24,778 nt of DNA from a virus: IMG/VR virus record IMGVR_UViG_3300043395_000741, positions 1 to 24,778 of that record; one strand, written 5' to 3'. Numbering within the stretch: position 1 is the stretch's first letter; each line of letters starts with the position of its first letter. The translations under genes and the position numbers were made by a program. This document shows positions 1,050 to 22,466 of the stretch, one piece after another. The notes beneath the pieces are model-generated. The model saw nothing but the letters and a program-made list of their open reading frames with translations. It ran no database searches and was not told the origin of the DNA.

Positions 1050-1056
1050 TGTTAAA
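1050..1056 (+). promoter_or_regulatory. Isolated TGTTAAA box before the protease gene (weak late-type site)
   Basis: TGTTAAACATA lies in the 30-base gap after the tape-measure stop and ends just before the protease start codon at 1062. It matches the downstream half of the late element found at 9863, 17782, 19919 and 22408. The TAACTA half is absent at the required spacing (1028-1033 reads ATAGGA), so promoter function is doubtful. Confidence 0.2.
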
Positions 1057-1061
1057 CATAT

Positions 1062-3794: not shown

Positions 3795-3854
3795 AAAAAA
3801 CCCCTATTTTCATAACTAATTGATTATCAACGAGTTATGCATTTAGGGTTTTTT
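3795..3854. repeat. Long imperfect hairpin containing repeat copy 1; possible bidirectional terminator
   Basis: Outer arms AAAAAA-CCC (3795-3804, one extra C) and GGG-TTTTTT (3846-3854) pair, then CATAACT (3811-3817) pairs with AGTTATG (3833-3839), then TTGAT pairs with ATCAA (3820-3830). The A-run on one side and T-run on the other would allow termination on either strand. The inner part, 3811-3830, is a copy of the CATAACT-n-ATTGAT-n-ATCAA repeat found again at 3991 and 4020. Confidence 0.6.
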
Positions 3855-3889
3855 AATGTATAAACCTTTAAAAATCAACAATTTAGGGG

Positions 3890-3909
3890 TGTGGATAACT
3901 TGTGGATAA
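3890..3909 (-). promoter_or_regulatory. Two exact DnaA-box sequences in tandem
   Basis: TGTGGATAA occurs at 3890-3898 and 3901-3909, an 11-base period. Its complement, TTATCCACA, is the classical bacterial DnaA box. Two perfect copies one helical turn apart are unlikely by chance in such AT-rich DNA. They lie between palindromic repeats and early promoters, suggesting recruitment of host DnaA to a phage origin or DnaA-linked control. Confidence 0.55.
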
Positions 3910-3925
3910 CTTTTTTTCAAAAATA

Positions 3926-3957
3926 TTTGGTAAATTCAAAAAATGTTCGTATCTTTG
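3926..3957 (+). promoter_or_regulatory. Early promoter P1, Bacteroidota type
   Basis: TTTG at 3926-3929 and TATCTTTG at 3950-3957 are separated by 20 bases. This matches the Bacteroidota primary-sigma consensus (TTTG, about 19-20 bp, TAnnTTTG). It shares a 22-base upstream sequence, with one mismatch, with promoter P2 150 bases downstream. Transcription would start near 3963 and run into the early genes through the palindromic repeats. Confidence 0.65.
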
Positions 3958-3990
3958 GACTGTTCCAATTGATAAAAATAGGGTTATTTA

Positions 3991-4046
3991 CATAACTCAT
4001 TGATAATCAATCAATTGTGCATAACTCATTGAAAATCAATAAGTTA
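3991..4046. repeat. Two further copies of the 20-bp palindromic repeat
   Basis: CATAACTCATTGATAATCAA (3991-4010) and CATAACTCATTGAAAATCAA (4020-4039) differ at one base and have a 29-base period. With copy 1 at 3811-3830 the consensus is CATAACT-n-ATTGAT-n-ATCAA. Copy 2 contains the perfect palindrome ATTGATAATCAAT (3999-4011). Copy 3 sits in a 25-base dyad, TAACT (4022-4026) with AGTTA (4042-4046) and ATTGA with TCAAT. They could be iterons bound by the replication initiator or operators, as they lie between P1 and P2. Confidence 0.6.
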
Positions 4047-4075: not shown

Positions 4076-4107
4076 TTTGGTAAATACAAAAATATGTTGT
4101 ATATTTA
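4076..4107 (+). promoter_or_regulatory. Early promoter P2, Bacteroidota type
   Basis: TTTG at 4076-4079 and TATATTTA at 4100-4107 are separated by 20 bases, the same layout as P1. The last base departs from TAnnTTTG. A leader of about 125 bases separates it from the first early gene at 4236. Confidence 0.6.
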
Positions 4108-4235
4108 CCTTGTAAGTTTGAGGGATTAAATATTTCCCTTTTTATTTACATATGTGATACACTATATATTAAAATCTTTTTATAAACAAAACCCAATTAG
4201 GTGTAAAAATTGGTTATACAAAAAACACAAAAAAT

Positions 4236-6924: not shown

Positions 6925-6955
6925 TTTGTATTATCAAAATTTTTTCGTATATTAG
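6925..6955 (+). promoter_or_regulatory. Early/middle promoter, Bacteroidota type, before the HNH gene
   Basis: TTTG at 6925-6928 and TATATTAG at 6948-6955 are separated by 19 bases. TATATTAG departs from TAnnTTTG at one base. The element lies 31 bases before the start codon at 6986 and after the terminator at 6688, as expected for a new transcription unit. Confidence 0.55.
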
Positions 6956-6985
6956 AGTATTAACAAACAATTAAAACAAAAACAG

Positions 6986-7330
6986 ATGGCACTGATGAAA
7001 GAAATTGAGGGATACCAAAACTACTTCGTAGATACTGATGGTATCGTTTACACAAACAAAATCTCATTGAGAAACAACATTAAAGGTGAATTGAAACCTT
7101 TAACATTATCCGTTAAGAAAACAGGATACAAATACGCAAACATTTATTACGGGAACAAAGTTAAGGAAAGAAGTTCGTTAAGAGTTCATAGATTAGTATG
7201 GCAAACTTTTAAAGGTTCTATTCCTGAAGGATGGGTTATTGACCATTTGAATGGTGATAGAGGTGATAATCGTTTGGATAACTTACAATGTATCACTCAA
7301 AAAGAAAATATTAACAGAAATAAAAAATAA
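6986..7330 (+). CDS. HNH homing endonuclease with NUMOD4-like N-terminus
   Basis: A 114-residue site-specific endonuclease of the free-standing homing type, which cuts DNA lacking the gene and promotes its copying. The N-terminus (EIEGYQNYFVDTDGIVYT, residues 6-23) fits the NUMOD4 DNA-binding module. The HNH domain is at 67-110: VHRLVWQTF, then DHLNGDRGDNRLDNLQ with likely catalytic His87 and Asn95, then TQKENIN. The length is usual for this class in phages. It is the first gene after the promoter at 6925. The putative initiator gene begins one base after its stop, and a GIY-YIG endonuclease follows that gene. Family assignment is secure; the target site is unknown. Confidence 0.9.
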   Translation: MALMKEIEGYQNYFVDTDGIVYTNKISLRNNIKGELKPLTLSVKKTGYKYANIYYGNKVKERSSLRVHRLVWQTFKGSIPEGWVIDHLNGDRGDNRLDNLQCITQKENINRNKK

Positions 7331-7986: not shown

Positions 7987-8442
7987 ATGAAAACAAAAAT
8001 TAGTAAATGGTCAGTTTACACCATAGTAAACAATGAAAACAAAGTTGAATATGTAGGATGCACTTCAAATCCTAAACATAGATTTTACAGACACAAACAT
8101 TGGTATCAACATTCAGGTATTGGTAAATTTGCCGGTAGAGATGATGTAAGAATGGAAATCATCAGAGAGTTTGATAATCGTTGGGAAGCATTAGATTTTG
8201 AAGAACAACTGAAATTAGATTTAGGTTTATCACATCTTTCAGAAAGAACAGGAACAGGTTTAATGCCAATCAAAAAGGTAATTGCATATTCAGCAACTAA
8301 TGGTAATCAAATCGGTATCTATAATTCAATATCAGAAGCTGCAAGAAAGTTAGATATAGGATTTCGTTCTATATCAGCAAACATAAAAGGTAGATGTAAA
8401 GTTGTAGATAAAAAATATCAGTTCAAATTATTGGAAAATTAA
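7987..8442 (+). CDS. GIY-YIG homing endonuclease with NUMOD1-like C-terminus
   Basis: A 151-residue protein. The GIY-YIG nuclease core is visible as SVYTIV (9-14), YVGCTSNPKHR (22-32, with the conserved Arg32) and an acidic segment with the likely metal-binding Glu (RWEALDFEEQLK, about 69-80). The first tyrosine motif is VYT instead of GIY, a common variant. Residues about 95-150 (VIAYSATNGNQIGIYNSISE, then AARKLDIGFRSISANIKG) match the NUMOD1 DNA-binding repeat with a helix-turn-helix. It lies 10 bases after the initiator gene, so homing endonucleases flank that gene on both sides. The family call is secure. Confidence 0.85.
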   Translation: MKTKISKWSVYTIVNNENKVEYVGCTSNPKHRFYRHKHWYQHSGIGKFAGRDDVRMEIIREFDNRWEALDFEEQLKLDLGLSHLSERTGTGLMPIKKVIAYSATNGNQIGIYNSISEAARKLDIGFRSISANIKGRCKVVDKKYQFKLLEN

Positions 8443-8461
8443 ATAATTATTAGTATATTAG
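8431..8461 (+). promoter_or_regulatory. Promoter, Bacteroidota type, before the small membrane protein gene
   Basis: TTGG at 8431-8434 and TATATTAG at 8454-8461. The -7 box is identical to the one at 6948. It overlaps the end of the GIY-YIG gene, and only five bases separate it from the ATG at 8467, so the transcript would be leaderless or nearly so if this start is right. Confidence 0.45.
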
Positions 8462-8466
8462 AAGAA

Positions 8467-8692: not shown

Positions 8693-8980
8693 ATGGAACA
8701 ACAACAAGAAACTTATTTCGCATTAAAATCAGGATTAGATGGTAATCCACAAATAGACGAGAACGCACTTTATTATATTGATTTCTCAAAACTACAAAGA
8801 ATAGAAGATTTGATTTTAATTCTCGCAGCAATCGGCTTTACATTCTCACCAAAACACCCACACTTTGAATTATTAAAACCTTTTATGAATTTAGGTGCAC
8901 CAATATTCCCTAATGGTAATCAACCTGTAAAGCATGATATTAGTTTACCAACTCTTAAAAAACCAAATGGAAATGGATAA
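8693..8980 (+). CDS. Hypothetical protein
   Basis: A 95-residue protein that I do not recognise. It begins MEQQQETYFALKSG, has a central hydrophobic helix (IEDLILILAAIGFTFS) flanked by acidic residues, and ends in a Pro/Asn/Lys-rich tail (ISLPTLKKPNGNG). The central segment is probably a buried helix and not a membrane anchor, as it is short and next to charged residues. Its 3' end overlaps the next gene by eight bases. It sits in the block of small genes between the replication genes and the terminase. Confidence 0.55.
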   Translation: MEQQQETYFALKSGLDGNPQIDENALYYIDFSKLQRIEDLILILAAIGFTFSPKHPHFELLKPFMNLGAPIFPNGNQPVKHDISLPTLKKPNGNG

Positions 8981-9206
8981 TCTTTATACAAACGAAGAGT
9001 TCAAAGAGTTAGTTCAATTCGCAGGAAGTATAACAACACACATACCTGAAGGTAAAGCAGGATATGTTTGGGATAACTATCGTAAGATAAACAACACAAC
9101 GGAAAATCAACCCTGTATGTGTGGTAGTTCTGCAGGACATTGGCGCAAAGCAATGGATAGTATTAGAGAGTATATTAAACAAAATTCGGACAAGTATAAT
9201 GGTTAA
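8973..9206 (+). CDS. Small protein with CxC...W motif, unknown function
   Basis: A 77-residue protein from the ATG at 8973. Upstream in-frame ATGs at 8934 and 8967 would lengthen the overlap with the previous gene, so this start, with an eight-base overlap, is preferred. It contains ELVQFAGSITTHIPEGKAGY and near the C-terminus QPCMCGSSAGHWRKAMDSIREYI. The last motif (CxCGSSAxxWxKAVxxIxxY) is one I recall from many short phage proteins beside terminase genes in Bacteroidota phages. Its biochemical role is unknown to me; the CxC could bind a metal. Its stop overlaps the next start (ATGGTTAA), suggesting translational coupling to the sigma-like gene. Confidence 0.6.
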   Translation: MDNLYTNEEFKELVQFAGSITTHIPEGKAGYVWDNYRKINNTTENQPCMCGSSAGHWRKAMDSIREYIKQNSDKYNG

Positions 9207-9753
9207 TGAAGTGACAGGTAGTATACAAACACAATGTGATAAAAGATTAACTATACTATATCAGCAATCACATACCTGGTTACTAAAAGCATCTTATAAT
9301 ATTTGTAAATCATTTGAAGAGAGTGAGGAATTAGTAAGTGACCTTTACCTTTATTTAGCAAAAGAATGTAGGCCTGAAATATGGTGGGGTGATAGTTACA
9401 ATTTAATCTATCTACAAAAGTTTTTAAGACATAGATGGTATAATAGGGTTGAGAAACTCAAAAGGTTTCATTATACGGATAAAAACGGGATATTTGAAGA
9501 TACATACGAAGAATACGATGAGGTGAAGGATGAGGAGATAATGAAGGCCTATGATGATGTGATGAAAGAGTTACAACATCTACAAATTACTAAACTATGG
9601 CCACAAGCCCGTTTATATGAAATGTATTGGATGAGTGATGATACTCTTAATGAAGTTGCGAAAAAGATTGGTATATCAAAGAGCACTACATTCCTTGCAA
9701 TTAAAAAGATACGCAATCATATGAGAAGTGTAGTCCAAAACCCATTCAATTGA
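9199..9753 (+). CDS. Sigma-70-like regulator, candidate late transcription factor
   Basis: A 184-residue protein from the ATG at 9199, which overlaps the previous gene by eight bases. The in-frame ATG at 9121 would overlap it by 86 bases. The N-terminal half (WLLKASYNICKSFEESEELV, then SDLYLYLAKE) resembles region 2 of extracytoplasmic-type sigma factors. The middle is acidic (EDTYEEYDEVKDEE). Residues about 150-177 (TLNEVAKKIGISKSTTFLAI, then KKIRNHMR) form a region-4-like helix-turn-helix. Small sigma-like proteins of this size occur beside terminase genes in Bacteroidota phages. Its place directly before the first TAACTA-N16-TGTTAAA element makes it a natural candidate to drive late promoters. 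A general DNA-binding regulator, or a terminase-related small protein, is the alternative. Confidence 0.6.
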   Translation: MVNEVTGSIQTQCDKRLTILYQQSHTWLLKASYNICKSFEESEELVSDLYLYLAKECRPEIWWGDSYNLIYLQKFLRHRWYNRVEKLKRFHYTDKNGIFEDTYEEYDEVKDEEIMKAYDDVMKELQHLQITKLWPQARLYEMYWMSDDTLNEVAKKIGISKSTTFLAIKKIRNHMRSVVQNPFN

Positions 9754-9776: not shown

Positions 9777-9881
9777 ATGCATTACCCTGACCATACTGCT
9801 GAATTAATGATATTCAATAGATGGGGTGATATAGTTTTTTGGATAACGATAGAAGGATTGCATAACTACAAATGGAATTAG
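9777..9881 (+). CDS. Possible 34-residue protein between regulator and terminase
   Basis: ATG at 9777 opens 34 codons: MHYPDHTAELMIFNRWGDIV, then FWITIEG and a short end, stop TAG at 9879-9881. The frame is also open upstream to a TTG at 9750 that overlaps the regulator's stop and would add nine residues (IREEEIYF region). The aromatic, mixed composition looks protein-like. I do not recognise it. Its 3' end overlaps the TAACTA half of the late element at 9863. Confidence 0.35.
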   Translation: MHYPDHTAELMIFNRWGDIVFWITIEGLHNYKWN

Positions 9882-9891
9882 GTATGTTAAA
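9863..9891 (+). promoter_or_regulatory. Late-type element before the terminase genes
   Basis: TAACTA (9863-9868), 16 bases, TGTTAAA (9885-9891). The spacing is identical to the copies at 17782, 19919 and 22408. It lies 23 bases before the small-terminase start codon. It does not match the Bacteroidota TAnnTTTG consensus. Confidence 0.5.
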
Positions 9892-9914
9892 AAAACATAT
9901 AAAACATAATTAAG

Positions 9915-10223
9915 ATGCCGTTTCAACCAGGAAACAAATTAAGTAAGGGTAGACCAGCAGGTGGATTAAATCGTTCAACTGAGCAAGCTAAATTAGCAAT
10001 TGCAAGATTAGCAAATCAGGGTTTGGATGCGATTAGAGAGGATATGGAGAGAATACGAAAACAAAATCCAGCAAAAGCAGCTGAAATCTATTTGAGGTTA
10101 TTAGAATATATCGTTCCTAAAAAGGCACAGATAGATATGAAAGCACAAATAGACCAAAATATAAAACAGATAAGTGTAAACATATCAGATGGAACTAAAC
10201 ATCAACACATCAAAGACATATAG
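9915..10223 (+). CDS. Putative terminase small subunit
   Basis: A 102-residue basic helical protein. It opens with the pattern FQPGNKLSKGRPAGGLNRST, which is common at the N-terminus of short phage proteins encoded directly before the large terminase (GNxxxxGRPKGxxNKxT). Helices follow (AKLAIARLANQGLDAIREDM; AAEIYLRLLEYIVPKKAQ). Small subunits recognise the packaging site and stimulate the large subunit. The large-subunit start codon lies within this gene (35-base overlap), supporting the pairing. Identification depends on position and on the N-terminal pattern, as these proteins diverge quickly. Confidence 0.7.
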   Translation: MPFQPGNKLSKGRPAGGLNRSTEQAKLAIARLANQGLDAIREDMERIRKQNPAKAAEIYLRLLEYIVPKKAQIDMKAQIDQNIKQISVNISDGTKHQHIKDI

Positions 10224-11361
10224 GGATATACAAAATAGTAGAAGGATTTGCATTCTCCAAGGCGGGACGCGTTCGGGTAAATCGCATTCTACGCTACAAT
10301 GGATATTAGTTCAAGCTCTATCAACTCCTAATCTTATCGTTTCAATTGTAAGAAAATCATTTCCTTCAATGAGAGTATCAATTATGCGAGATTGGATAAT
10401 GATACTGAAAGATTTAGGTATATGGAGTGAAGAACAATGGAGTGCAACCGAACACATCTATACATTTGAAAACGGAAGTATGGTTGAGTTTATGTCCATT
10501 GATAGTTCTGAAAAAAGAAAAGGTAGTAGTAGAGATATTCTTTTTGTTGATGAAGCAAATGAATTAAGTAGAGAAGATTGGTTTCAGTTATTCATTAGAA
10601 CACGCCAAAAGAGTATAATAGCATACAACCCATCATTCGGAACTAATCACTATATATTCACAGAAATACAAACACATCCTGAAGCAGACCTATACATTTC
10701 AACTTTCAGAGATAATCCATTTTTAGAGAAGCAATTAGTTGAAGAGATTGAAAGGTTAAAAGAAATAAATCCTGAATACTATAAGATATATGGTATGGGA
10801 ATGCCTGGCAATAACATAGGAACAATATTCTCAATAAACATAATAGATGAAGTGCCAGAACAGGCAGAGTTTATTGCATTCGGTATGGATTATGGATTTA
10901 GTGTAGACCCAACAACTCTAATAGCAGTAAGTAAAATAGATAAGGATTTATACATTGAGGAATTGATTTATAAAAAGGGAATGGTAACGCAGGATATAAT
11001 CAATGAATTAAAATCGTTGGATATAGATAGAAATGAGATATGGGGTGATAGTGCGGAACAAAGATTGATAGAAGAAATATATCGTTCAGGCTTTAACATC
11101 AAACCTGTAAAAAAGGGTAAAGATAGTGTAAGGTTAGGAATAGATTTAATGCAACAATACCGATTGAATGTAACAAAGAGTAGTGTTAATACAATCAAAG
11201 AATTTAGTGAGTATGTGTGGATGGTTGATAAGAATGGTAATTTTGAAAACATACCTGTTGATTACTCTAACCATAGTATAGATGCAATTCGTTATGTTGT
11301 GATGGAAAGATTAAATGCAAAGAAAATAAACGCAGGAAAATATTCAATTTCAATTAGATAA
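10189..11361 (+). CDS. terL: Terminase large subunit
   Basis: A 390-residue packaging motor that couples ATP hydrolysis to DNA translocation into the prohead and cuts the concatemer. Walker A is GGTRSGKS (25-32), Walker B ILFVDEAN (117-124, catalytic Glu122), and AYNPS (145-149) fits the coupling motif. The RNase H-like nuclease follows with Asp234 in GMDYGFSVDP, Asp288 in GDSAEQ and Asp365 in SIDAIRY. The length is normal for the compact terminases of Bacteroidota phages. The ATG at 10189 leaves a normal N-terminus before Walker A and overlaps the small-subunit gene by 35 bases. The next gene starts 3 bases after the stop. This is the most certain assignment in the window. Confidence 0.95.
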   Translation: MELNINTSKTYRDIQNSRRICILQGGTRSGKSHSTLQWILVQALSTPNLIVSIVRKSFPSMRVSIMRDWIMILKDLGIWSEEQWSATEHIYTFENGSMVEFMSIDSSEKRKGSSRDILFVDEANELSREDWFQLFIRTRQKSIIAYNPSFGTNHYIFTEIQTHPEADLYISTFRDNPFLEKQLVEEIERLKEINPEYYKIYGMGMPGNNIGTIFSINIIDEVPEQAEFIAFGMDYGFSVDPTTLIAVSKIDKDLYIEELIYKKGMVTQDIINELKSLDIDRNEIWGDSAEQRLIEEIYRSGFNIKPVKKGKDSVRLGIDLMQQYRLNVTKSSVNTIKEFSEYVWMVDKNGNFENIPVDYSNHSIDAIRYVVMERLNAKKINAGKYSISIR

Positions 11362-11364
11362 GTT

Positions 11365-11673
11365 ATGGGAGGTTATGCAAAAGCAACACATTGTAAAGAG
11401 TGTGGTGTAGAATTTAGTGAAGCAAATCCAAAATCAGAACCAAGCAGATTTTGTCATCCATGTCACAAAGCATATAATAGGAAAAGAAGTGGTTGGAGAA
11501 GTAAGGCGGAAATACAAAACTTTAAAAGTATACACAATGATGAATACTATAAAAGAATAAGAGAAGAGAATGCGGAACTACAAAGTAGAGAAGAGTGGTT
11601 AAATAAGATAAGAGAAAGATTAGATAAAGCAATAACAACATTAGATAATGATTATAAAAGGACAAGAGTTTAG
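11365..11673 (+). CDS. Zinc-ribbon plus coiled-coil protein
   Basis: A 102-residue protein. Cys10-x2-Cys13 (HCKECGVEF) and Cys30-x2-Cys33 (FCHPCHKAY) make a four-cysteine zinc ribbon at the N-terminus. After a basic stretch (NRKRSGWRSKAE) the C-terminal half is a long charged helix (YYKRIREENAELQSREEWLN and LNKIRERLDKAI). The family is not known to me. The arrangement would suit nucleic-acid binding by a dimer. It directly follows the large terminase and overlaps the next gene by 26 bases, so it may take part in packaging or in late regulation, both inferred from position. Confidence 0.6.
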   Translation: MGGYAKATHCKECGVEFSEANPKSEPSRFCHPCHKAYNRKRSGWRSKAEIQNFKSIHNDEYYKRIREENAELQSREEWLNKIRERLDKAITTLDNDYKRTRV

Positions 11674-11857
11674 TTTAGAGCAAGTAGAAGCAATGTTTGA
11701 TTTATGCACAGAGTTAATGAGTATAAACGAAACACAAAACGCACAACTGATTGCTTTTAATGCTAAACTACAAAACGAAGAGAAAAAGGTGAAAGCATTA
11801 GAGCAGAAATTATTTTTCCTATCACAAGCATTTACAAATAACACATATAAAGCATAA
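11648..11857 (+). CDS. Small coiled-coil protein
   Basis: A 69-residue acidic helical protein with heptad-like hydrophobic spacing (SLEQVEAMFDLCTELMSINE; FNAKLQNEEKKVKALEQKLF). I do not recognise a family. It starts inside the zinc-ribbon gene and its last base is the first base of the next start codon (TAATGA), so it is tightly coupled to both neighbours. A role as a partner of the following tail-chaperone-like protein is possible but unproved. Confidence 0.5.
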   Translation: MIIKGQEFSLEQVEAMFDLCTELMSINETQNAQLIAFNAKLQNEEKKVKALEQKLFFLSQAFTNNTYKA

Positions 11858-12498
11858 TGAAAAAAGAAATTAGTATAACGATGCCTGAAGGATGGCAAGA
11901 TGTAAAGTTAAAAACATATTTAGATTTAAGTAGGGATTTAGTGAACTATGAAGATGATGAGGAAGCACAGGTAGCTTTAATGTTGTATCACTTATGTGGT
12001 ATTGATGGTAATCTATTAAAGCAGTTATCACAACAATCATTCAATCAGTTAAAGCATGAATTAAATACATTTATGCAACCTGCTGAATTACCATTACAAA
12101 GGATAATCACTATAAACGGAATTGAATATGGATTTGAACCTAACTTAAGCCGAATATCTTATGGTGCATATGCTGATATATCTAAATACGATACAGTCCA
12201 AATAGACGATAATTGGGCAAAGATAATGAGTATACTATATAGACCTGTTGTGAGTAGAAATGGTGAAACATATTCAATAGAACCATACGAAGGTGTAATT
12301 GATGAGAGTAAATTCTTAAACACAACAATGGATATACATTTCGGAGCATTGTTTTTTTTTGTTCGTTTGTCAAGGGACTTACTGAATTATACCCTGAACT
12401 CTACGATAGTGATGGAGAAATATCCACACTTCAACTCAATTTTGGCAAGAAGTGGAAAGCATATGCTACCATTGTGGAACTTGCCAACGGAGATATAA
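11857..12498 (+). CDS. Tail-assembly-chaperone-like protein, zero-frame product
   Basis: In the zero frame the product has 213 residues. The first 168 (MKKEISITMPEGWQDVKLKT, LMLYHLCGIDGN, INGIEYGFEPNLSRISYGAY, DIHFGALFFF) resemble proteins of Bacteroidota phages that carry a continuous C-terminal domain. In this sequence that domain lies in the -1 frame (12360-12620). After the run of nine T (12352-12360) the zero frame continues for 45 residues (VRLSRDLLNYTLNSTIVMEK onwards) that do not look related. The pattern recalls the G/GT tail chaperones, which are made as short and frameshifted long forms. The alternative is an undercalled T-run in the sequence. Here the gene is next to the terminase and fibre genes, not the tape measure. 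Confidence 0.6.
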   Translation: MKKEISITMPEGWQDVKLKTYLDLSRDLVNYEDDEEAQVALMLYHLCGIDGNLLKQLSQQSFNQLKHELNTFMQPAELPLQRIITINGIEYGFEPNLSRISYGAYADISKYDTVQIDDNWAKIMSILYRPVVSRNGETYSIEPYEGVIDESKFLNTTMDIHFGALFFFVRLSRDLLNYTLNSTIVMEKYPHFNSILARSGKHMLPLWNLPTEI

Positions 12499-12620
12499 CA
12501 AAGATAGATAGTGTGGTGAAAGAGCCATTAGAGAAATGTTTATTACTTCTATCTTATAAAGCTGATAAAGGATTAGTGGAAAAAATGATGCATGATGCGG
12601 CTTTAAAAAAATACAACTAA
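12360..12620 (+). CDS. -1 frame extension of the tail-chaperone-like protein
   Basis: Slipping back one base on the T-run (12352-12360) enters a frame that stays open for 86 codons to TAA at 12618-12620. It encodes CSFVKGLTELYPELYDSDGE, then LNFGKKWKAYATIVELANGD, ITKIDSVVKEPLEKCLLLLS and a charged helical end (LVEKMMHDAALKKYN). The segment FGKKW...IxxLAxGDITKxDxVxxxPxxxCL is a pattern I recall as the C-terminal part of a single continuous protein in related phages. No start codon or junction signal of its own is visible near 12360. A fused product would have about 254 residues. It explains the otherwise empty stretch 12499-12620. Confidence 0.65.
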   Translation, partial: CSFVKGLTELYPELYDSDGEISTLQLNFGKKWKAYATIVELANGDITKIDSVVKEPLEKCLLLLSYKADKGLVEKMMHDAALKKYN

Positions 12621-12622
12621 AC

Positions 12623-12651
12623 CAACAACATTATTGAAAACCTATGTTAAA
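12623..12651 (+). promoter_or_regulatory. Late-type element before the fibre module, degenerate copy
   Basis: CAACAA (12623-12628) in place of TAACTA (four of six bases agree), exactly 16 bases, then TGTTAAA (12645-12651) continued by GATA as at 19941. It lies two bases after the -1 frame stop and 17 bases before the ATG at 12669. Confidence 0.4.
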
Positions 12652-12668
12652 GATATAAAGTAAAACAT

Positions 12669-12899
12669 ATGTCTGTTTGGTCTAATTCTCGTAATGGTAA
12701 TTTAAGATATTCTATTAATCGTCAAAACGCATCGGGTATCTATATTGGCCCTACAAGGGGTTTAAGTTCACCAAAGAATAATCGTAGAGGTTGTCTTTGT
12801 GTTAATGAAGATAGATATGGTAGGGATTGTTGTGGTGGTGCGTTAATATCACAAGGTATCGGTAGAATACAATCACCAGCAAATCAACAAAATCAATAA
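12669..12899 (+). CDS. Small cysteine-containing virion-associated protein
   Basis: A 76-residue protein with a Ser/Asn/Arg-rich N-terminus (MSVWSNSRNGNLRYSINRQN), then GCLCVNEDRYGRDCCGGALI (41-60) and ISQGIGRIQSP. The GCLC...CC-x-GAL...QGIG pattern is one I recall from short structural proteins of uncultured Bacteroidota phages, always near fibre genes. Four cysteines in two pairs could bind metal or form disulfides in the particle. It is the first gene of the fibre unit after the late-type element at 12623, and the next gene starts six bases after its stop. Confidence 0.6.
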   Translation: MSVWSNSRNGNLRYSINRQNASGIYIGPTRGLSSPKNNRRGCLCVNEDRYGRDCCGGALISQGIGRIQSPANQQNQ

Positions 12900-12905
12900 T
12901 AAGAT

Positions 12906-15257
12906 ATGGCGATTTATAATCAACAACAATTAATTTCAGCAAGTAACGCAACCTACTTTACAAATGTGTATGGTGGTATTAGTGCAAGTGCTGTAAGAGA
13001 TTTAAACTATTCGTGGATTAGTTCATCCGCTCTTTTATCAGGCTCTCAAACATTTGTTGGAGACCAGATTATTAGTGGTAATGTTAATATAGAGGGAACA
13101 TTTACTTCATCACTTCAAACAGGATATCTTTTAGTTGGTGATGGTAGTGGTAAAACACAAGCAGTAGCAACATCATCAATAATAGCAAACACAGATACAG
13201 GTAGTTTATTAGTAACTGCATCTTTTAATGATACCACTAGAAATATTACTTTTACAAAAGGTGATAATACAACATTTAATTTAGGTGGGTTTGCAACAAC
13301 AGGAAGTAACTCATTTACAGGCTCACAATCAATAAATGGTAATGTAACATTTAATACAACCGGTAGTGCAACTACTAATGGATTAACATTTCCAAATTCT
13401 AAAATACATCAAGATAACTTTTTAAACTTAAAAGGTTTAGGAAATGTTGGTGTAGATATATCAACTGATGGAAATGCAACTTCAACTGGTGTTAATATCA
13501 ATTTAAGAAATACTAACAACAATGGTGATATTCAATTAACTACATCTAATGGTAATATTAAATTAGATGCAGGAACACAGAATATTAATGTATATGGTGC
13601 AGTAAATTTGATAAGTGGCAGTAATGGAGGTAAAATTGTTTTCCCTAATGGTTCACAATTAAGCGGAATTACAGGTGACCAATTTAAATTTACAGCAGGT
13701 AATGATGCATCAGCTCAATTCTTAATTAATTCTTCTTCTCAACCTCTTAATTTAATATTTGAAAATAGAGGTAATGCAGGACAAACACAATTCTTAAACA
13801 TATTAGGAACTGAATTTCATAGTGCAAGTTCTTATACATTTAATGGTGGTAACGCAACATTCCAAGGTAATGTATACGCACCCAATATAACAGGCTCTAC
13901 AATCAATACAGGAAGTTTTGCAACAACTGGCTCAAATACATTTATTGGAATTGAAACTATACAAGATGCAGGTGGATATACAACAGCAATCGCTCCTTAT
14001 TCAGGAAGTTTAATATTTGTTGGTAAAACATATACATCTTCATCGTTTTCACATATAACATCATCAGCAACAGCAGCTAATTTTGTTAACTTTATTTTTA
14101 AAACAAATAATACAACTCCTAATTTAACAATTACGGGTAGTAATAATATTCTTAATCATCCTGCAGCAGCTGGTGCTGGTTTAAGATACTGGGTTGGTTC
14201 AAATAATATTTTCTTAAATGCACCACCACAGATTAGTGCTTCAATGACGCAAGTTCCAATTGTGATAAACAATAACTATGCTTTTGCAGCTACTACTTTA
14301 AGAGGGCCTGCTAGTTCATCTAACACAATTACTTATGCAGGAAATTTAGGTGTAGGTGCAACTGCTATGGGTAGTGCAGCAGCTCCACTTGATAAGTTTT
14401 CTGGCACAATAACAGTCGGTCAAAACATTTTAGGTAATTCAGTAAACCTTTTAGGTGGTATAACCCCTATAAGTGCATCATTAATATTTAGTTCAAACCA
14501 ATCAACATTTGGCCCTACAACATTAAACCTTAATTCATCATCTGTATTTGCTTTTGGAAATATAATTGGTAATACAACCCTAAATAACAACTATTATCAT
14601 ACAGCTAATCCTGATAATAATCAGTTGTATATGTTAGCTAATATAATGCAGGGAGCTCTTATTAATACATCTGGTAGTAATTCAGTTGGTGGGAACAGAA
14701 GATTTTTAACTACAAACATAATCTTTACATCAAATGGTTTACAAAATACTCCATTCTCAAATGCAAGTTCATCAATCGCACTTAATCAAGAAGGTAGTGG
14801 GTCATCATTAGTAGGAACATTAGCAGTAGGTTTAGGATTTGTAATTACAGGAAGTAGTGCAGTTCAAGACCAATTTGCTCCATTTGGATTTTCTTCAGGA
14901 AGTGGTGGAGGTAGTGCATTTTTAGGAAGATTTAACGCAGCAGATGGTATAAGAGATAAATCAGCTGAAAATGTATTAGTAGTAGGAACGGGAACATCTT
15001 ACTCAAATAGAAAGACCGGTTTATTAATTGACTCTGGCTCTAATATGTTTGTAGAAGGAACATTTAATGTATCTGGTAGTTCATCAATGACCGGTAGTGT
15101 AGCAGTGACAGGAAATCAAACACTTCAATCATATACAATATTGAGTAATGTATCAGCATCTCTAAACTTTTCAGATGATACGGCAGCGGCAGCAGGTGGA
15201 GTTCCTTTGGGTGGATTATATAGAAATGGTAATTTCGTAATGATAAGATTAACATAA
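12906..15257 (+). CDS. Large virion surface / tail fibre protein
   Basis: A 783-residue, Ser/Thr/Asn/Gly-rich beta-structured protein. The N-terminus (AIYNQQQLISASNATYFTNV, SASAVRDLNYSWISS) looks like an attachment domain. It is followed by repeated short turns of the form TGSNSFTGSQSINGNVTF, seen at about residues 130-150 and, diverged, at 340-350, typical of beta-helical or beta-prism fibres. The C-terminus, SLNFSDDTAAAAGGVPLGGL followed by YRNGNFVMIRL, is an ending I recall on virion proteins of many uncultured phages. There is no signal peptide or catalytic motif. It probably contributes to host recognition. The collagen-like fibre gene begins nine bases after its stop. Confidence 0.7.
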   Translation: MAIYNQQQLISASNATYFTNVYGGISASAVRDLNYSWISSSALLSGSQTFVGDQIISGNVNIEGTFTSSLQTGYLLVGDGSGKTQAVATSSIIANTDTGSLLVTASFNDTTRNITFTKGDNTTFNLGGFATTGSNSFTGSQSINGNVTFNTTGSATTNGLTFPNSKIHQDNFLNLKGLGNVGVDISTDGNATSTGVNINLRNTNNNGDIQLTTSNGNIKLDAGTQNINVYGAVNLISGSNGGKIVFPNGSQLSGITGDQFKFTAGNDASAQFLINSSSQPLNLIFENRGNAGQTQFLNILGTEFHSASSYTFNGGNATFQGNVYAPNITGSTINTGSFATTGSNTFIGIETIQDAGGYTTAIAPYSGSLIFVGKTYTSSSFSHITSSATAANFVNFIFKTNNTTPNLTITGSNNILNHPAAAGAGLRYWVGSNNIFLNAPPQISASMTQVPIVINNNYAFAATTLRGPASSSNTITYAGNLGVGATAMGSAAAPLDKFSGTITVGQNILGNSVNLLGGITPISASLIFSSNQSTFGPTTLNLNSSSVFAFGNIIGNTTLNNNYYHTANPDNNQLYMLANIMQGALINTSGSNSVGGNRRFLTTNIIFTSNGLQNTPFSNASSSIALNQEGSGSSLVGTLAVGLGFVITGSSAVQDQFAPFGFSSGSGGGSAFLGRFNAADGIRDKSAENVLVVGTGTSYSNRKTGLLIDSGSNMFVEGTFNVSGSSSMTGSVAVTGNQTLQSYTILSNVSASLNFSDDTAAAAGGVPLGGLYRNGNFVMIRLT

Positions 15258-15266
15258 TAGAAAGAT

Positions 15267-16826
15267 ATGAGTTTAATATTAAATGCAAGTATTCAGGGTA
15301 ACCAACAATTTACAGGTAGTGTAGATGTAACGGGCTCATTAAGTATAAACGGAACTTCTCTACCTCAAGCAGTAACACAGGGTGTGCAGGGTGTGCAAGG
15401 AACGCAGGGATTGCAAGGTGCTAATGGACAAAGTAATGCATATTTCAATTATCAAGCAAAAACAGGAACTACGAGTGGTGACCCTGCATCAGGACATTTG
15501 ATTTGGGATAATGTAACACAAACATCAGCAACATCTTTTAATGTAAGTGATACTGATAGTAATTCAAACAATGTAGATATATTTCTTTCTAATATAGGTG
15601 TTGGAAGTATAATAGTATTGCAAGATAAAAACTCTCAATCAAATTATCAGCAATGGCAAATAACTTCTAAAACTGATAACTCAACATATTGGACATACGG
15701 AGCAACTTATTTAGGTGGTGGATATTCTTTTTCAAATAATCAGGATTTATTATTCATCATCGCAGCATATCCAACAGGCCCACAAGGAACACAAGGTATT
15801 CAGGGAGTGCAAGGATTACAAGGTATTCAAGGAATACAAGGTAATTCAGGAACAAATGGAAGTCAAGGTGCAACGGGAGCGCAAGGTATAACTGGAACTG
15901 CCGGCACTAATGGAACAAACGGTGCACAGGGAGCAACAGGAGTACAAGGAACTGCAGGCACCAACGGGACAAATGGAACGAATGGTAGTCAGGGTGCAAC
16001 TGGCTCACAAGGCACTGCAGGCACAAACGGAACAAACGGAAGTCAAGGTGCCACCGGTGCACAAGGAACAGCAGGCACAAACGGAACAAACGGAAGTCAA
16101 GGAACAACCGGCTCTCAAGGAACTGCCGGCACTAATGGCACGAATGGTGCACAAGGAACTGCAGGAACTAACGGGACAAATGGTAGCCAAGGAACAATAG
16201 GAGCACAAGGAACAGCAGGCACCAATGGAACTAACGGAACTCAAGGCACGGCAGGAACAAATGGAACAAATGGAACTCAGGGCACGGCAGGAACCAATGG
16301 CACAAATGGTAGTCAAGGAACAGCAGGCACGAATGGCACCAATGGTTCGCAAGGAGCTACTGGAGCGCAAGGTGCAACAGGTGCAACGGGAGCAAGTGCA
16401 GGAATTACTTCATACACAAATCCTGGAGATAATAGAGTTATAACTTCTGTTAACTCATCTACAATAAATGCAGAAGCAAACTTAACATTTAATGGAAGTT
16501 TATTGACACTTGCAGGTGATATGACCGCAACGGGAGATATTACAGCATTCTATACATCAGATGAAAGATTAAAAGATAATATTATTCCAATAACTGATGC
16601 ATTAGATAAAGTTCGTAAACTAAATGGTGTTAAGTGGGATTGGAATGATAACGCAAGAGAAACAACTCGTTCAACTGCAACATTTGGTTTAATAGCACAA
16701 CAAGTAGAAGAAATAATACCTGAAGTAATAAGAAAAGATTACGAAGGATATTTGCAAATAGATTATTCTAAATTAGTTGCTTTATTAATTGAAGCAATTA
16801 AAGAATTGGAACAAAAAATAAAGTAA
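15267..16826 (+). CDS. Collagen-like tail fibre with C-terminal S74 intramolecular chaperone
   Basis: A 519-residue fibre. Residues 1-50 repeat the attachment style of the preceding protein (LNASIQGNQQFTGSVDVTGS). A globular part follows to about 168, then a Gly-x-y region at 171-379 made largely of TNG, TAG, SQG and ATG triplets, with ten copies of GTAGTNGTNG. Proline is almost absent, unlike animal collagens. Residues about 427-519 form a peptidase S74 chaperone: SDERLKDNIIPI, GVKWDWND, FGLIAQQVEEIIPEV and IDYSKLVALLIEAIKELEQK. In this family the domain trimerises the fibre and usually cleaves itself off before the conserved Ser of SDERLK. The protein probably forms a trimeric host-binding fibre. 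The next gene starts one base after the stop. Confidence 0.9.
   Translation: MSLILNASIQGNQQFTGSVDVTGSLSINGTSLPQAVTQGVQGVQGTQGLQGANGQSNAYFNYQAKTGTTSGDPASGHLIWDNVTQTSATSFNVSDTDSNSNNVDIFLSNIGVGSIIVLQDKNSQSNYQQWQITSKTDNSTYWTYGATYLGGGYSFSNNQDLLFIIAAYPTGPQGTQGIQGVQGLQGIQGIQGNSGTNGSQGATGAQGITGTAGTNGTNGAQGATGVQGTAGTNGTNGTNGSQGATGSQGTAGTNGTNGSQGATGAQGTAGTNGTNGSQGTTGSQGTAGTNGTNGAQGTAGTNGTNGSQGTIGAQGTAGTNGTNGTQGTAGTNGTNGTQGTAGTNGTNGSQGTAGTNGTNGSQGATGAQGATGATGASAGITSYTNPGDNRVITSVNSSTINAEANLTFNGSLLTLAGDMTATGDITAFYTSDERLKDNIIPITDALDKVRKLNGVKWDWNDNARETTRSTATFGLIAQQVEEIIPEVIRKDYEGYLQIDYSKLVALLIEAIKELEQKIK
15777..16403 (+). repeat. DNA encoding the collagen-like Gly-x-y repeats
   Basis: About 627 bases of nine-base and longer related units encode Gly-x-y triplets. 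The protein repeat GTAGTNGTNG occurs ten times but the codons vary between copies (GGA, GGC, GGG; ACA, ACC, ACG; AAC, AAT). This removes long exact DNA repeats. Open frames on the opposite strand here are a by-product of the repeat composition. Confidence 0.85.
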
Positions 16827-16827
16827 T

Positions 16828-17391
16828 ATGGCATTACCATCATCAGGTCAAATATCAATGACTGATTTCAGAACAGAAATGGGTCAAACTTCTTACAACA
16901 ATTATAGTGTAGGTGGAATGGCTTATTCTCCATGGAATGGTAATGGTTATTGGTATACACCTGTTAATATTCACACATCAAATGCAGGAAAATATCCAGT
17001 TGGCCCAACAAGTCCAATATCTTTTTCTGATTGGTATGGATATGATAATAGTTTATATTATTCACCATCGGATACTTTTAGAGATATGGTTATTAATTGG
17101 GGAGGTGTATGTTATTCAAGCACATTAACTAAATTTGATGGCGGGACATCTAATACTACATACGATATTACTATATCAGGCTCAGCAGCAGATTTTAGTG
17201 GAATAGATTATGTAAGAGTTTATTATTCTCAACCATGGAATAGTAGTGGAACAAATACAGGAAGTTATGCACCAATTCACGAAGCATTTGTAAATCAAAG
17301 TGCATACAATTACACATTTACTTATACATACAACTACGATGCAGCTAGAGGAAGTAAAATATATATTGTTGCAACAGCAGGTTGCTATTAA
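16828..17391 (+). CDS. Virion protein, fibre-cluster type
   Basis: A 187-residue Ser/Tyr/Gly/Asn-rich protein. Its N-terminus, MALPSSGQISMTDFRTEMG, and a later PISFSDWYGYD match a pattern frequent in phage virion proteins (LPSSGxISxxDxxxE...xISxSDFYG). The C-terminal two thirds are beta-rich with an immunoglobulin-like look (YDITISGSAADFSGIDYVRV; FTYTYNYDAARGSKIYIV). It probably decorates the tail tip or fibre. It starts one base after the S74 fibre gene and is followed ten bases later by another small beta-rich protein gene. The exact role is unknown. Confidence 0.65.
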   Translation: MALPSSGQISMTDFRTEMGQTSYNNYSVGGMAYSPWNGNGYWYTPVNIHTSNAGKYPVGPTSPISFSDWYGYDNSLYYSPSDTFRDMVINWGGVCYSSTLTKFDGGTSNTTYDITISGSAADFSGIDYVRVYYSQPWNSSGTNTGSYAPIHEAFVNQSAYNYTFTYTYNYDAARGSKIYIVATAGCY

Positions 17392-17401
17392 AAAATAAAT
17401 T

Positions 17402-17779
17402 ATGGGATTTAAAGTAAAAGTAAAAACAGGAACACCACTTTATAATGTGACCGTTTATACGAGAGCAGGTAATGGATTATCAACAGCCGAATATAATGTT
17501 TATTATGGGCCAGATGGTAGTAGTTGGAACTATTTAGCCGGCCCTTTGAATTCAACTTCTTGCACACAATTATCAACAATAGATACAACATTAGGCCCTA
17601 CAATTTATTTCAAATTGGAAAGGGATATTGGTGCAACGGATGTATTTTTTAATTATGCAACATCTCAATTTTGTCCATCTAATCAAGGAGTAACCTGTGT
17701 ATGGTCAGTAACACCAAGCTCTAATATGGATGTAGCACTTACTGCATATGTAATCGGTGGCGATTTAGTAGATTGTTAA
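17402..17779 (+). CDS. Small beta-rich virion protein
   Basis: A 125-residue protein that I do not recognise as a family. It is rich in Thr, Ser, Tyr and Gly with alternating beta-strand patterns (FKVKVKTGTPLYNVTVYTRA; IYFKLERDIGATDVFFNY) and has five cysteines in its second half, the last at the C-terminus. No membrane segment is visible. It is the last gene of the fibre unit. A late-type element begins two bases after its stop. Confidence 0.6.
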   Translation: MGFKVKVKTGTPLYNVTVYTRAGNGLSTAEYNVYYGPDGSSWNYLAGPLNSTSCTQLSTIDTTLGPTIYFKLERDIGATDVFFNYATSQFCPSNQGVTCVWSVTPSSNMDVALTAYVIGGDLVDC

Positions 17780-17781
17780 TT

Positions 17782-17810
17782 TAACTATTTTTTCCAGTTC
17801 GGTTGTTAAA
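17782..17810 (+). promoter_or_regulatory. Late-type element before the glycan-modification pair
   Basis: TAACTA (17782-17787), 16 bases, TGTTAAA (17804-17810), continued by TATA. With two upstream T bases the halves form the inverted repeat TTTAAC/GTTAAA. Only five bases separate TGTTAAA from the ATG at 17816, so a promoter here would give a leaderless or nearly leaderless message. Confidence 0.55.
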
Positions 17811-17815
17811 TATAG

Positions 17816-18778
17816 ATGGCAATAAATAATTTAGCAAAACGAGTTATAGAGAATGGTGGAATGATATATCCACTAACTTTTCCTACACAACAAAAAACAG
17901 CACTATTTAATCCCTCAATTTTAGTTAGAGGTGATAAAGTATTGATTAATATTAGGCATTGCCAATATACTCTTATTCACACAGATAGTAAGTTTGAAAG
18001 CAGATGGGGCCCTTTACTCTATCTAAATCCAGAAAACGATATTTCACTAACTACAACAAATTATTTAGGTGAATGGAAAGATAATCAATTGATTAATCCA
18101 ACCTTAATTGATACAACTCATTTAGATGTAAAACCTTTATGGGAATTTGTTGGTTTAGAGGATTGTAGATTAGCAGATTGGAATAATACATTATATCTTA
18201 CAGGTGTTCGTAGAGATACTGAAACTACGGGAATTGGTAGAATGGAATTATCTGAAATAAATTCTTATAAAGAAATACGCAGATACCGAATACCTACACC
18301 AAATAGGGTAGAAAGTTATTGTGAAAAGAATTGGATGCCAATATTGGATATGCCATTTCATTATCTTAAATGGTGTAATCCTGTTGAGATAGTTAAGGTA
18401 AATATTGGTGGTGAAACAGAGCAAGTATTTATCGGTAAAGAATTAGGATACACAAAAGATATGAGAGGTGGTTCACAGGTGATTACAATTGGTGAACACA
18501 GATTTTGTTTAGTGCACGAAACAGATTTTTGGAGAAATAATCAAAATAATAAAGATGCAACATATAGGCATAGAATAATTTGCTTTGATAAAGATTGGAA
18601 CATAATAAAACGAACTGAAACATTTAACTTTATGACAGGTTTAATTGAGTTTTGTTGTGGATTAGCAGAATATAAAAATAAAATATTAATTACATTTGGA
18701 TATTCAGATAACTCAGCATATCTTTTAGAATTACCTAAAGATTATTTCTTAAAATTAGTTTATGAAGGAATTGATTGA
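17816..18778 (+). CDS. GH130-like five-bladed propeller protein (glycan-active)
   Basis: A 320-residue protein with spaced signature blocks like those of GH130-type beta-propeller enzymes, which phosphorolyse or hydrolyse mannosides: NPSILVRGD (about 32), GLEDCRLADWNNTLYLTGVR (about 113), CEKNWMPI (about 168), MRGGSQVI (about 214), HETDFWR (about 233), YRHRIICFDKDW and EFCCGLAEY (about 280). The GLEDCR and EKNW blocks correspond to substrate-pocket positions in the family. Phage copies are often found with glycan genes, and their true substrates are unknown. It overlaps the following methyltransferase gene by 17 bases, so the two are co-translated. The likely role is processing of host surface or virion glycans. 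Phosphate-binding residues cannot be checked without alignment. Confidence 0.6.
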   Translation: MAINNLAKRVIENGGMIYPLTFPTQQKTALFNPSILVRGDKVLINIRHCQYTLIHTDSKFESRWGPLLYLNPENDISLTTTNYLGEWKDNQLINPTLIDTTHLDVKPLWEFVGLEDCRLADWNNTLYLTGVRRDTETTGIGRMELSEINSYKEIRRYRIPTPNRVESYCEKNWMPILDMPFHYLKWCNPVEIVKVNIGGETEQVFIGKELGYTKDMRGGSQVITIGEHRFCLVHETDFWRNNQNNKDATYRHRIICFDKDWNIIKRTETFNFMTGLIEFCCGLAEYKNKILITFGYSDNSAYLLELPKDYFLKLVYEGID

Positions 18779-19931
18779 TTTTATACAGCAACCTAACGAT
18801 GATATTACTGCATATAATTTAGCGGAATGGTATTATAGTAAAGAAGATTATGCAGGAAGTATATCTTTTTATATCAGAGTGTGTGAAGTATCAAAAGATG
18901 ATAATAGGATATATAAATCACTAATAAAAATTGCTTTAGCATTGTATAAGCAAAGTTGGAGAATAACTTATGTAAAAGGTTATCTATTACACGCTATATC
19001 AGTATTACCAAAAAGACCTGAAGGCTATTACCTATTAGCAAAAATATACGAAGAAAATAAGGAATGGCAAGAGTGTTATTCAATGTGTGAAATAGCAAAG
19101 AGTATATGTGATTTCAGTTATGTAGAAACTGATTTAGAGTATCCTGGCCATTGGGGATTTGATTTTGAAAAAAGTGTAGCGAGTTGGTGGATGGGTAGAG
19201 AAAAAGAGAGTATTGATTTATCAACTTATCTTTATGAGAATGTAGAAATGCCGGAAATGTATAAGAATGCGGTAATAGGTAATATTAATTTAGTTTATGG
19301 AACATTGGATTATCAAAAACCAACTTACAAAGATAACTACTCACAAGCATTTCAGGATTTATTTGTTCTACTAATTAACGAATATAAAAGGGATGGTAAG
19401 TATTTGGAAATAGGTGCATATCATCCATACGAACACTCTAATACCTATCTTTTAGAGAAAGAATATAATTGGAAAGGCATTTCATTAGATATAAACCCTA
19501 AAAGTGTAGTAAACTTTAATGCAAAAAGATTTAATGAGTGTATAGAAGCTGATGCAACGAGGTATAACTACAAAGAAAAGATGGATAGTTTAGGTTGGGG
19601 AACGGATTGGGATTATCTTCAATTAGATTGTGAGCCATCTGCAAATACATTTTTAGCACTTATGCAAATACCATTAGATGATTATAGATTTAGAGTAATT
19701 ACTTATGAACATGATTGGTATTTAGAAAAAAGTATATATAAGGATAAGAGTAGAAGATATTTGGAAAGTATGGGATATGAATTAATCGTATCAAATGTTT
19801 CCGTAGATAATAAATCACCATTTGAAGATTGGTGGGTTCACAAAGAATTAATTAGTAATGATATTAAAGATAAATTTCGTTCAATTAAAGAAATAAATCA
19901 TATAAAAGAATATATTTTTAACTACATATAA
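18762..19931 (+). CDS. TPR-like domain fused to FkbM-type methyltransferase
   Basis: A 389-residue protein. Residues about 1-125 look like tetratricopeptide helices (NLAEWYYSKEDYAGSISFYI; AISVLPKRPEGYYLLAKIYE). From about residue 187 there is an FkbM-type SAM-dependent methyltransferase: QAFQDLFVLLINEYKRDGKY, motif I YLEIGAYHPYEHSNTYLLE, then WKGISLDINPKSV, EADATRYN and DYLQLDCEPSANTFLALMQI. FkbM enzymes O-methylate sugars and secondary metabolites. Together with the overlapping propeller gene it suggests modification of a glycan on the virion or the host envelope. The middle part (about 125-185, with HWGFDFEKSVASWWMGREKE) belongs to neither domain clearly. The domain call is good, the substrate unknown. 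Confidence 0.7.
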   Translation: MKELIDFIQQPNDDITAYNLAEWYYSKEDYAGSISFYIRVCEVSKDDNRIYKSLIKIALALYKQSWRITYVKGYLLHAISVLPKRPEGYYLLAKIYEENKEWQECYSMCEIAKSICDFSYVETDLEYPGHWGFDFEKSVASWWMGREKESIDLSTYLYENVEMPEMYKNAVIGNINLVYGTLDYQKPTYKDNYSQAFQDLFVLLINEYKRDGKYLEIGAYHPYEHSNTYLLEKEYNWKGISLDINPKSVVNFNAKRFNECIEADATRYNYKEKMDSLGWGTDWDYLQLDCEPSANTFLALMQIPLDDYRFRVITYEHDWYLEKSIYKDKSRRYLESMGYELIVSNVSVDNKSPFEDWWVHKELISNDIKDKFRSIKEINHIKEYIFNYI

Positions 19932-19947
19932 AAAATGTGGTGTTAAA
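19919..19947 (+). promoter_or_regulatory. Late-type element before the capsid module
   Basis: TAACTA (19919-19924), 16 bases, TGTTAAA (19941-19947), continued by GATA. The upstream half lies in the last codons of the methyltransferase gene, and the ATG of the scaffold gene is 22 bases downstream. TTTAAC/GTTAAA symmetry is present. Confidence 0.55.
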
Positions 19948-19969
19948 GATAATAAAACAACTAAATAAT

Positions 19970-20722: not shown

Positions 20723-20752
20723 AAATATTATAAACAAAAAAATTTATTCACA

Positions 20753-21763: not shown

Positions 21764-21791
21764 TTTTTAAAATTAAAAAAACAATAACACT

Positions 21792-22349: not shown

Positions 22350-22375
22350 TCAGTAAGCACGATTGATATATAATT

Positions 22376-22404
22376 AAAGGGTATTCGTAAGGATACCCTT
22401 TTTT
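22376..22404 (+). terminator. Rho-independent terminator of the capsid operon
   Basis: AAAGGGTATTC (22376-22386) pairs with GGATACCCTTT (22391-22401), 11 pairs with one T-G wobble and a GTAA loop, followed by T to 22404. It ends the scaffold, capsid and tail-tube-like unit four bases before the next late-type element. Confidence 0.9.
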
Positions 22405-22407
22405 ATT

Positions 22408-22436
22408 TAACTATTATTAAGATAAGTGGTGTTAAA
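22408..22436 (+). promoter_or_regulatory. Late-type element before the portal module
   Basis: TAACTA (22408-22413), 16 bases, TGTTAAA (22430-22436). It lies between the terminator at 22376 and the ATG at 22467, exactly where a new promoter is needed. The leader carries AGATAAT at 22441, 22451 and 22462, the last overlapping the start codon. Confidence 0.6.
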
Positions 22437-22466
22437 TAGAAGATAATACAAGATAATTACGAGATA

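Follow-up and report, generated by a model that had tools for sequence, protein, structure and literature searches.

A predicted ECF-type sigma factor as candidate driver of late transcription in a lineage of Bacteroidota-type phages

The window analyzed here is the entire viral record IMGVR_UViG_3300043395_000741, a stretch of 24,778 bases. At 9199..9753 on the + strand it carries a gene for a protein of 184 aa, assigned to the ECF-type sigma factors by PHROG 1740, TIGR02937 and predicted fold, which starts with an ATG from which relatives at 69-75% identity also align. Its start is overlapped by 8 bases by the end of an ORF for a 77-aa protein of three predicted helices with a P-C-x-C-x-S...W motif (8973..9206, +), referred to here as the partner. 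Downstream, a TerS-like gene (9915..10223, +) opens the late block; it has orthologs in 141/149 loci and no named family match, and it lies directly before the gene for the terminase large subunit (TerL; 10189..11361, +; PHROG 2, E 3e-38; Pfam Terminase_3, E 2e-19). The early block contains HNH and GIY-YIG/NUMOD homing-type endonuclease genes (6986-7330 and 7987-8442). An earlier, sequence-only reading of this DNA had proposed that the sigma-like gene is the only good candidate in the window for a specificity factor acting between early and late genes, and in a Pfam search of 20 window proteins the homing endonucleases were the only other proteins resembling transcription factors.

The assignment of the protein was examined by profile searches and structure prediction. 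PHROG 1740 ("RNA polymerase sigma factor") was matched by the window protein alone (E 7e-7, residues 21-179), while its Pfam matches, again with the protein alone, were below cut-off. We assembled a family set of 82 distinct proteins, each of at least 150 aa, from scans of viral contigs with the single window sigma (7 relatives from 10 stretches), with a sigma alignment (89 relatives from 153 stretches, 80 kept) and with the terminase (436 relatives from 543 stretches, 80 kept). All 82 members matched TIGR02937 (sigma70-ECF) at E<=0.01, the best at 4e-13, the window protein reaching 25.9 bits where the curated cut-off is 42.9, and all 82 also matched TIGR02985 (Sig70_bacteroi1) at E<=0.01, the window protein again lying under the curated cut-off. 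A tblastn search of 50,697 cultured-phage records with the window sigma and the sigma of locus L050 gave no match, and the cellular relatives were five weak ones, all in Bacteroidota MAGs.

The AlphaFold model made with the family alignment (pLDDT 85.7, pTM 0.43) consists of two helical domains joined by a linker that is of low confidence at residues 86-100; helices run up to residue 88 and resume at residue 108, leaving a linker of about 19 residues, within the <50 residues between sigma2 and sigma4 that are used to delimit ECF factors. Both domains match ECF structures. The top Foldseek match of the whole model was SigL, an ECF factor of Mycobacterium tuberculosis (E 4.5e-4). In VIA-align comparisons the sigma2 domain (residues 5-88; 9211..9462, +) matched the N-terminal SigR fragment 1h3l_B (Z 8.9, rmsd 3.0, 78 aligned residues) and M. 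tuberculosis SigL, 6tyg_F (Z 9.1, rmsd 3.3, 82 aligned), and the sigma4 domain (residues 112-184; 9532..9750, +) matched 2h27_D, region 4 of Escherichia coli sigmaE on -35 DNA (Z 9.5, rmsd 2.5, 69 aligned); since middling Z values are common among helical proteins, as the tool itself warns, we gave more weight to the consistent picture from profile, fold and the two domains than to any one Z. The region-2-like and region-4-like segments seen from the sequence thus correspond to sigma2 and sigma4 in the prediction, and a fold unrelated to sigma factors, named in advance as grounds for abandoning the idea, was not what was obtained. By profile and predicted fold, the product of 9199-9753 is predicted to be an ECF-type (group 4) sigma-70 factor.

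We then considered the partner. An ORF abutting or overlapping the sigma start was present in 77/81 sigma loci, and 71/75 of the distinct adjacent ORFs encode a W...P-C-x-C...W motif, with variants of it in L026 and L125; W33, P47, C50 and W57 were invariant in 60 aligned sequences. The adjacent ORFs of L035 and L047 are unrelated to the partner and have the look of homing-endonuclease remnants: a NUMOD-like ORF occupies the partner's place before sigma (L035 4320-4550, L047 7170-7400), probably as the result of a homing-endonuclease insertion. The model of the partner shows three helices with a pLDDT of 91.1. It matched no known family or fold, those of anti-sigma factors included, no hit of the PDB fold search was better than E 3, and its alignment profile found nothing in three MAGs, among which there was no positive control. 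ECF factors are usually accompanied by an anti-sigma factor (PMC8103513), so that the partner, which appears as a co-translated protein in 73/75 distinct adjacent ORFs where a co-transcribed anti-sigma would be expected, may be regarded as a candidate anti-sigma factor, and only as a candidate.

Two sets of promoter-like sequences flank the sigma gene. For the early set, a matrix built from the upstream regions of the HNH group had the consensus TTGGTAAtaTcAaA..TTTttCgTATATTA, which at -33, and to some extent at -7, resembles the unusual -33/-7 housekeeping promoter of Bacteroidota, TTTG/TAnnTTTG (PMC6847099). Host-type promoters were found on the + strand at 3927..3960 (score 21.1), at 4077..4110 (16.2), before the HNH gene at 6925..6958 (37.9, an in-sample score because the matrix came from the HNH upstream group) and at 8431..8464 (18.2), at the head of the operon whose last gene is sigma. 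All four precede the sigma gene, and the five strongest late elements (9861-22406) all follow it, the first of them starting 108 bases past the sigma stop codon. The proposals that the gene stands just before the first late-type element, and that the early block uses host-type promoters and the late block another element, were therefore borne out, with 8431 as the last of one set and 9861 as the first of the other. The layout was broadly alike in four whole records (33-35 kb), some of them with weaker stray hits of either matrix. Around the promoters at 3927 and 4077 there is also a 26-base repeat of the CATAACTCATTGATAATCAATCAATT type in three copies, accompanied by inverted copies (3811-4046), which is possibly an operator or an origin.

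In its original form, TTTAACTA-N17-GTTAAA, the late element occurs in three exact copies (17780, 19917 and 22406) and in one copy with 2 mismatches (9861), compared with Markov-control expectations per strand of 0.0, 0.05 and 0.9 for 0, 1 and 2 mismatches; the element is real and above chance. The exact window sequence was dropped as a definition, as it is not present in L001-L007 while a broader bipartite form is conserved. From aligned upstream regions of relatives we redefined the element as a probable bipartite promoter of roughly the form [T/A]AAC(T/G)A-N17-TGTTA(A/T)(A/T). On the + strand of the window it lies before the TerS-like gene 9915 (9861..9895, score 22.1) and before genes 12669 (12621..12655, 16.9), 17816 (17780..17814, 24.8), 19964/19970 (19917..19951, 23.8) and 22467 (22406..22440, 21.9), scores that are not independent because four window sites served as seeds for the matrix. 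Before gene 1062 the window has the TGTTAAACAT core alone (1050..1059, +), without a recognizable -35 box and with a score of -7.6, yet 13/20 relatives score at least 9 at this gene. In genes 17816 and 1062 the GTTA core lies about 11 bases 5′ of the start codon (17805-17816 and 1051-1062; the median in relatives is also 11), so their late transcripts may have little or no leader.

To score relatives, the matrix was trained on two or three gene groups and applied to groups outside the training, with a cut-off of 9. At this cut-off the element was found upstream of gene 22467 in 19/19 cases, of gene 19964 in 31/33, of gene 17816 in 3/4, of gene 12669 in 35/78 and of TerS in 26/94, in addition to the gene 1062 group, against a mean of 0.1-0.8 in shuffled sequences. 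It was found upstream of sigma in 0/85 cases, of TerL in 0/78, of gene 11857 in 0/89, of gene 8693 in 0/74, of the MCP gene in 0/30 and of HNH in 1/26. With gaps of 16-18, a cut-off of 7 and an in-sample matrix, the TerS and gene 12669 groups rose to 92/94 and 77/78, and in 41/92 TerS sites the spacing was shifted by one base. Across phage loci totalling 2.10 Mb, part of them overlapping, the matrix gave 356 sense and 14 antisense hits of at least 16. Dozens of related phages thus carry the element in front of six orthologous late genes, with hardly any copies in antisense orientation. ECF promoters are described with AAC at -35 and CGT at -10 (PMC8103513); here AAC was exact in 118/243 elements and the -10 box had TGTT, not CGT, in 232/243, while the presence of GTT in 241/243 is partly by construction, because the elements were selected by the matrix. 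The window excerpt L008 and the cellular loci L149-L153 were excluded from the phage motif counts. For TerS, a free motif run took another register covering the -35 half only, and the full element came from seeded runs. De novo runs on coding upstream regions (sigma, TerL, gene 11857) yielded gene conservation only and were not used.

We asked how regularly the sigma gene accompanies the element. In the first set of loci the gene lies 342-2575 bases before TerL in 122/149, the other 27 having at most 2,021 bases of upstream sequence present; in a second set, gathered from a more distant terminase, it was found in 46/70 loci, with 23 of the loci short. The remaining locus of the second set, L208, has four strong elements and 3,076 bases upstream of TerL without a sigma gene. 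Two ORFs there (175-2669), which fill the distance from the contig start to TerS in the place expected for sigma, we take to be methyltransferase-like from their motifs; the contig begins inside them, so a sigma gene may lie past its end. All 20 records of 30-35 kb have exactly one sigma gene. Late elements conserved in phages that lack the gene would have spoken against the proposal, and among the relatives with elements none was shown to lack sigma, L208 being a fragment that could be read either way. Four distant cultured phages with a related TerL (BK745P1, FPSV-S18, BV283P1 and sniff9-1) matched no sigma profile at E<=1 and had no element set, with a single element hit of 16.0 in sniff9-1, where it lies in antisense to TerL; at their distance these phages make no strong control. 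The phages are assigned to Bacteroidota hosts tentatively, on the basis of the promoter type, the cellular relatives of sigma and terminase relatives in Bacteroides phages (38% identity).

The -10 box of the element occurs in three dialects, set by the letters that follow GTT: AA (TGTTAAA), AT (TGTTATT) and TT (TGTTTTT). In 219 pairs drawn from 78 phage clusters, the -10 letters of different promoters of one phage were concordant in 83.1%, compared with a mean of 33.7% and a maximum of 46.1% when letters were permuted within genes, and concordance without TerS reached 94.3% of 88 pairs. As these promoters sit at non-homologous places, the agreement points to one trans-acting reader. In contrast, the -35 letters agreed between promoters of one phage in 25%, versus 19% when permuted (maximum 28%). 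The contigs are fragments, and some carry more than one locus; clusters were merged only at 1,500 shared identical bases, giving 108. Of these, 106 phage clusters were labelled, four with a -10 class outside AA, AT and TT were left out, and 69 of the remaining 102, those with full TerL and sigma, entered the residue-column and tree analyses.

On the trees of these 69 phages, 5 dialect changes were needed for sigma and 14-15 for TerL. When nine other gene trees were compared on the same phages, they required 4-19 changes versus 3-5 on the sigma trees, and sigma needed fewer changes than any of them. Partial trees were built against circularity: sigma4 only needed 8 changes, sigma without columns 26-36 and 62-84 needed 7, and sigma2 only needed 5, while TerL blocks of 100 columns needed 14-16. 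Normalized mutual information with dialect was at least 0.4 in 20/156 variable sigma columns versus 3/319 TerL columns, a comparison that is partly unfair because sigma evolves faster than TerL. The top five sigma columns by this measure were 31, 77, 69, 73 and 34.

Most of the dialect-following positions (66, 68, 69, 70, 73, 74, 77 and 80) lie in residues 66-80 (9394..9438, +), the predicted end of loop L3 and the helix that would read the -10 box, as picked out by mutual information and by independent pairs. For AT/TT contrasts across well-supported branches of the TerL tree, positions 77, 74, 69 and 31 changed in the same direction in 6/6, and positions 80, 73 and 30 were concordant in nearly all six; for region-4 position 174 the contrasts on the same tree gave 1.1 against 0.7. 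In the comparison of AA with the rest, columns 34, 168, 33 and 140 came out strongest; two of these belong to region 4, and no column reached p 0.05 at the median. Since 6 pairs allow no p below 0.031 in any of the 159 columns, significance after correction is out of reach for individual residues, and what argues for dialect reading by this region is the clustering of positions on one helix rather than any single residue. Loop L3 comprises residues 56-67 in SigL and 63-72 in sigmaE (PMC6372665), and its equivalent here, judged from aligned structure ranges, is approximately 57-70, the next helix carrying 69-80. ECF promoters are described as often having AAC at -35, with -10 specificity set by the L3 loop of sigma2 (PMC8103513, PMC4598750, PMC6372665), and exchanging this loop between ECF factors is reported to transfer the -10 specificity with it (PMC8103513, PMC6372665).

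The recognition-helix stretch of sigma4, by column counts in the alignment, comprises residues 160-172 (SKSTTFLAIKKIR in the window; 9676..9714, +). Around its start I159, S160 and T163 are invariant in 82 sequences, with K161 conserved in 80 and S162 in 81. Since this helix is nearly invariant and the -35 letters have no phage pattern, the covariation is real but mainly involves region 2. The sequence-only reading had looked to region-4 residues for covariation with the element; covariation was indeed found, mainly between region 2 and the -10 box, and the expected pairing of region 4 with the -35 box did not appear, both being nearly constant.

Taken together, these data make it very probable that the phage has an ECF-type (group 4) sigma-70 factor of its own and that this factor turns early into late transcription during infection. 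Host holoenzyme would transcribe the early block from host-type promoters, and the operon ending in the partner and sigma genes would be started from the promoter at 8431. The phage sigma would then bind host core RNA polymerase, with sigma4 reading the [T/A]AAC(T/G)A box and sigma2 the TGTTA(A/T)(A/T) box about 17 bases downstream, and packaging, structural and tail genes would be transcribed from 9861 and from the elements that follow it. Across the relatives, the predicted reading helix of sigma2 changes along with the three -10 dialects. The role of sigma as driver of the late element, together with core polymerase binding, direct promoter recognition and timing, we infer from what is observed of domain make-up, element, gene distribution, promoter order and coupled change.

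Alternatively, the protein could be a sigma-like activator that helps host holoenzyme at upstream sites, of the sort of RinA/ArpU or T4 gp33. RinA/ArpU of Gram-positive phages are encoded before the terminase and are needed for packaging and structural genes, a gene place shared by the protein described here, and the sigma4-like HTH is its most conserved part. However, the protein has a complete sigma2 domain whose residues track the -10 box, tracking that an activator bound upstream would not need, and the late elements lack the host -7 box TAnnTTTG. We consider an activator improbable. Among the 25 families listed in the profile search of the sigma set there was no ArpU/RinA family. Even less probable is that the late element is read by a different phage product, for example a single-subunit RNA polymerase or some other regulator, with sigma controlling something else. 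Many genes in the related phages are without known function, and the absence of PF00940 matches in the 20 records of 30-35 kb proves nothing by itself, given that no control genome was matched either, but a single sigma gene is found in every one of these records, and none of nine other genes is tracked by the dialect as closely as sigma is. Least probable of all is that the element, instead of being a promoter, is an operator in which a dimeric regulator binds the inverted repeat TTTAAC...GTTAAA. In its favor, the window boxes are perfect inverted repeats and symmetry exceeds permutation in the gene 12669 group taken alone (1.3 vs 1.1 of 3 letters, 0/1000), but over 241 elements it does not (1.32 vs 1.30 of 3), the halves do not change together, the spacing at TerS sites varies by one base and the hits are strongly strand-biased.

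Returning to the sigma factor that would switch transcription, the claim that the pairing of a small sigma-like protein with such a promoter had not been described proved too broad as regards phages in general, and stood for this lineage and this promoter, for which no paper on a small phage sigma in Bacteroidota phages was found in the open-licence literature. The dialect switching and the three-helix partner likewise did not turn up there. The gene for Xpf precedes the terminase genes of PBSX and drives its late operon, and likewise in the window lineage a phage gene before the terminase is associated with late promoters of its own. We know of no dialect series for Xpf. The sigma of phiEco32/7-11 is ECF-like. 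Both Xpf of the defective Bacillus subtilis prophage PBSX, which is described as a group 4 factor of 19.95 kDa with sigma2 and sigma4 (PMC10141391), and the factor reported here are small two-domain group 4 factors carried in a phage or prophage; Xpf differs in coming from another bacterial phylum. Like the present factor, that of phiEco32/7-11 has its own late promoters for structural genes, with early genes served by host promoters, but its hosts are enterobacterial and an anti-sigma factor is also encoded (PMC4331800). Neither for gp79, a name taken from a PDB entry title in the fold search, nor for phiEco32 in combination with the ECF family was a paper found in the open-licence literature. 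Chromosomal ECF factors of Bacteroidota are related through TIGR02985, which matches all 82 phage members, but differ in that the phage sigma appears not to be autoregulated, with no element in its 85 upstream regions and a host-type operon promoter, and sits in an early-to-late switch; positive autoregulation is usual in ECF factors, with exceptions named (PMC8103513). As far as is known, lineage and promoter are new, and dialect switching was not seen in the earlier cases.

We lean slightly toward a joint reading in which these phages hold a natural series of sigma-promoter pairs, the dialects being read at helix 66-80 and residues 30-34 and the P-C-x-C partner, possibly a new type of anti-sigma or co-factor, perhaps governing the activity of sigma. 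With the same slight preference, the late promoters of a genome would change together and the pairs would move among phages by recombination. If true, this would fill in the transcription programme of widespread uncultured Bacteroidota phages, and the natural pairs could possibly provide matched parts for Bacteroidota laboratory strains. The dialects switched several times against the terminase background, which makes the co-change of sigma2 and the -10 box a testable question.

Two observations concern the late block itself. A collagen-like run of 9-base (Gly-x-x) repeats lies at 15783-16401, inside a tail-fibre-like gene. Gene 20753 (20753-24150), labelled capsid/MCP by us on a match to PHROG 11320, a group without assigned function, and a weak match to the virion structural PHROG 1623, precedes the portal gene at a long distance from the terminase, which is an unusual order.
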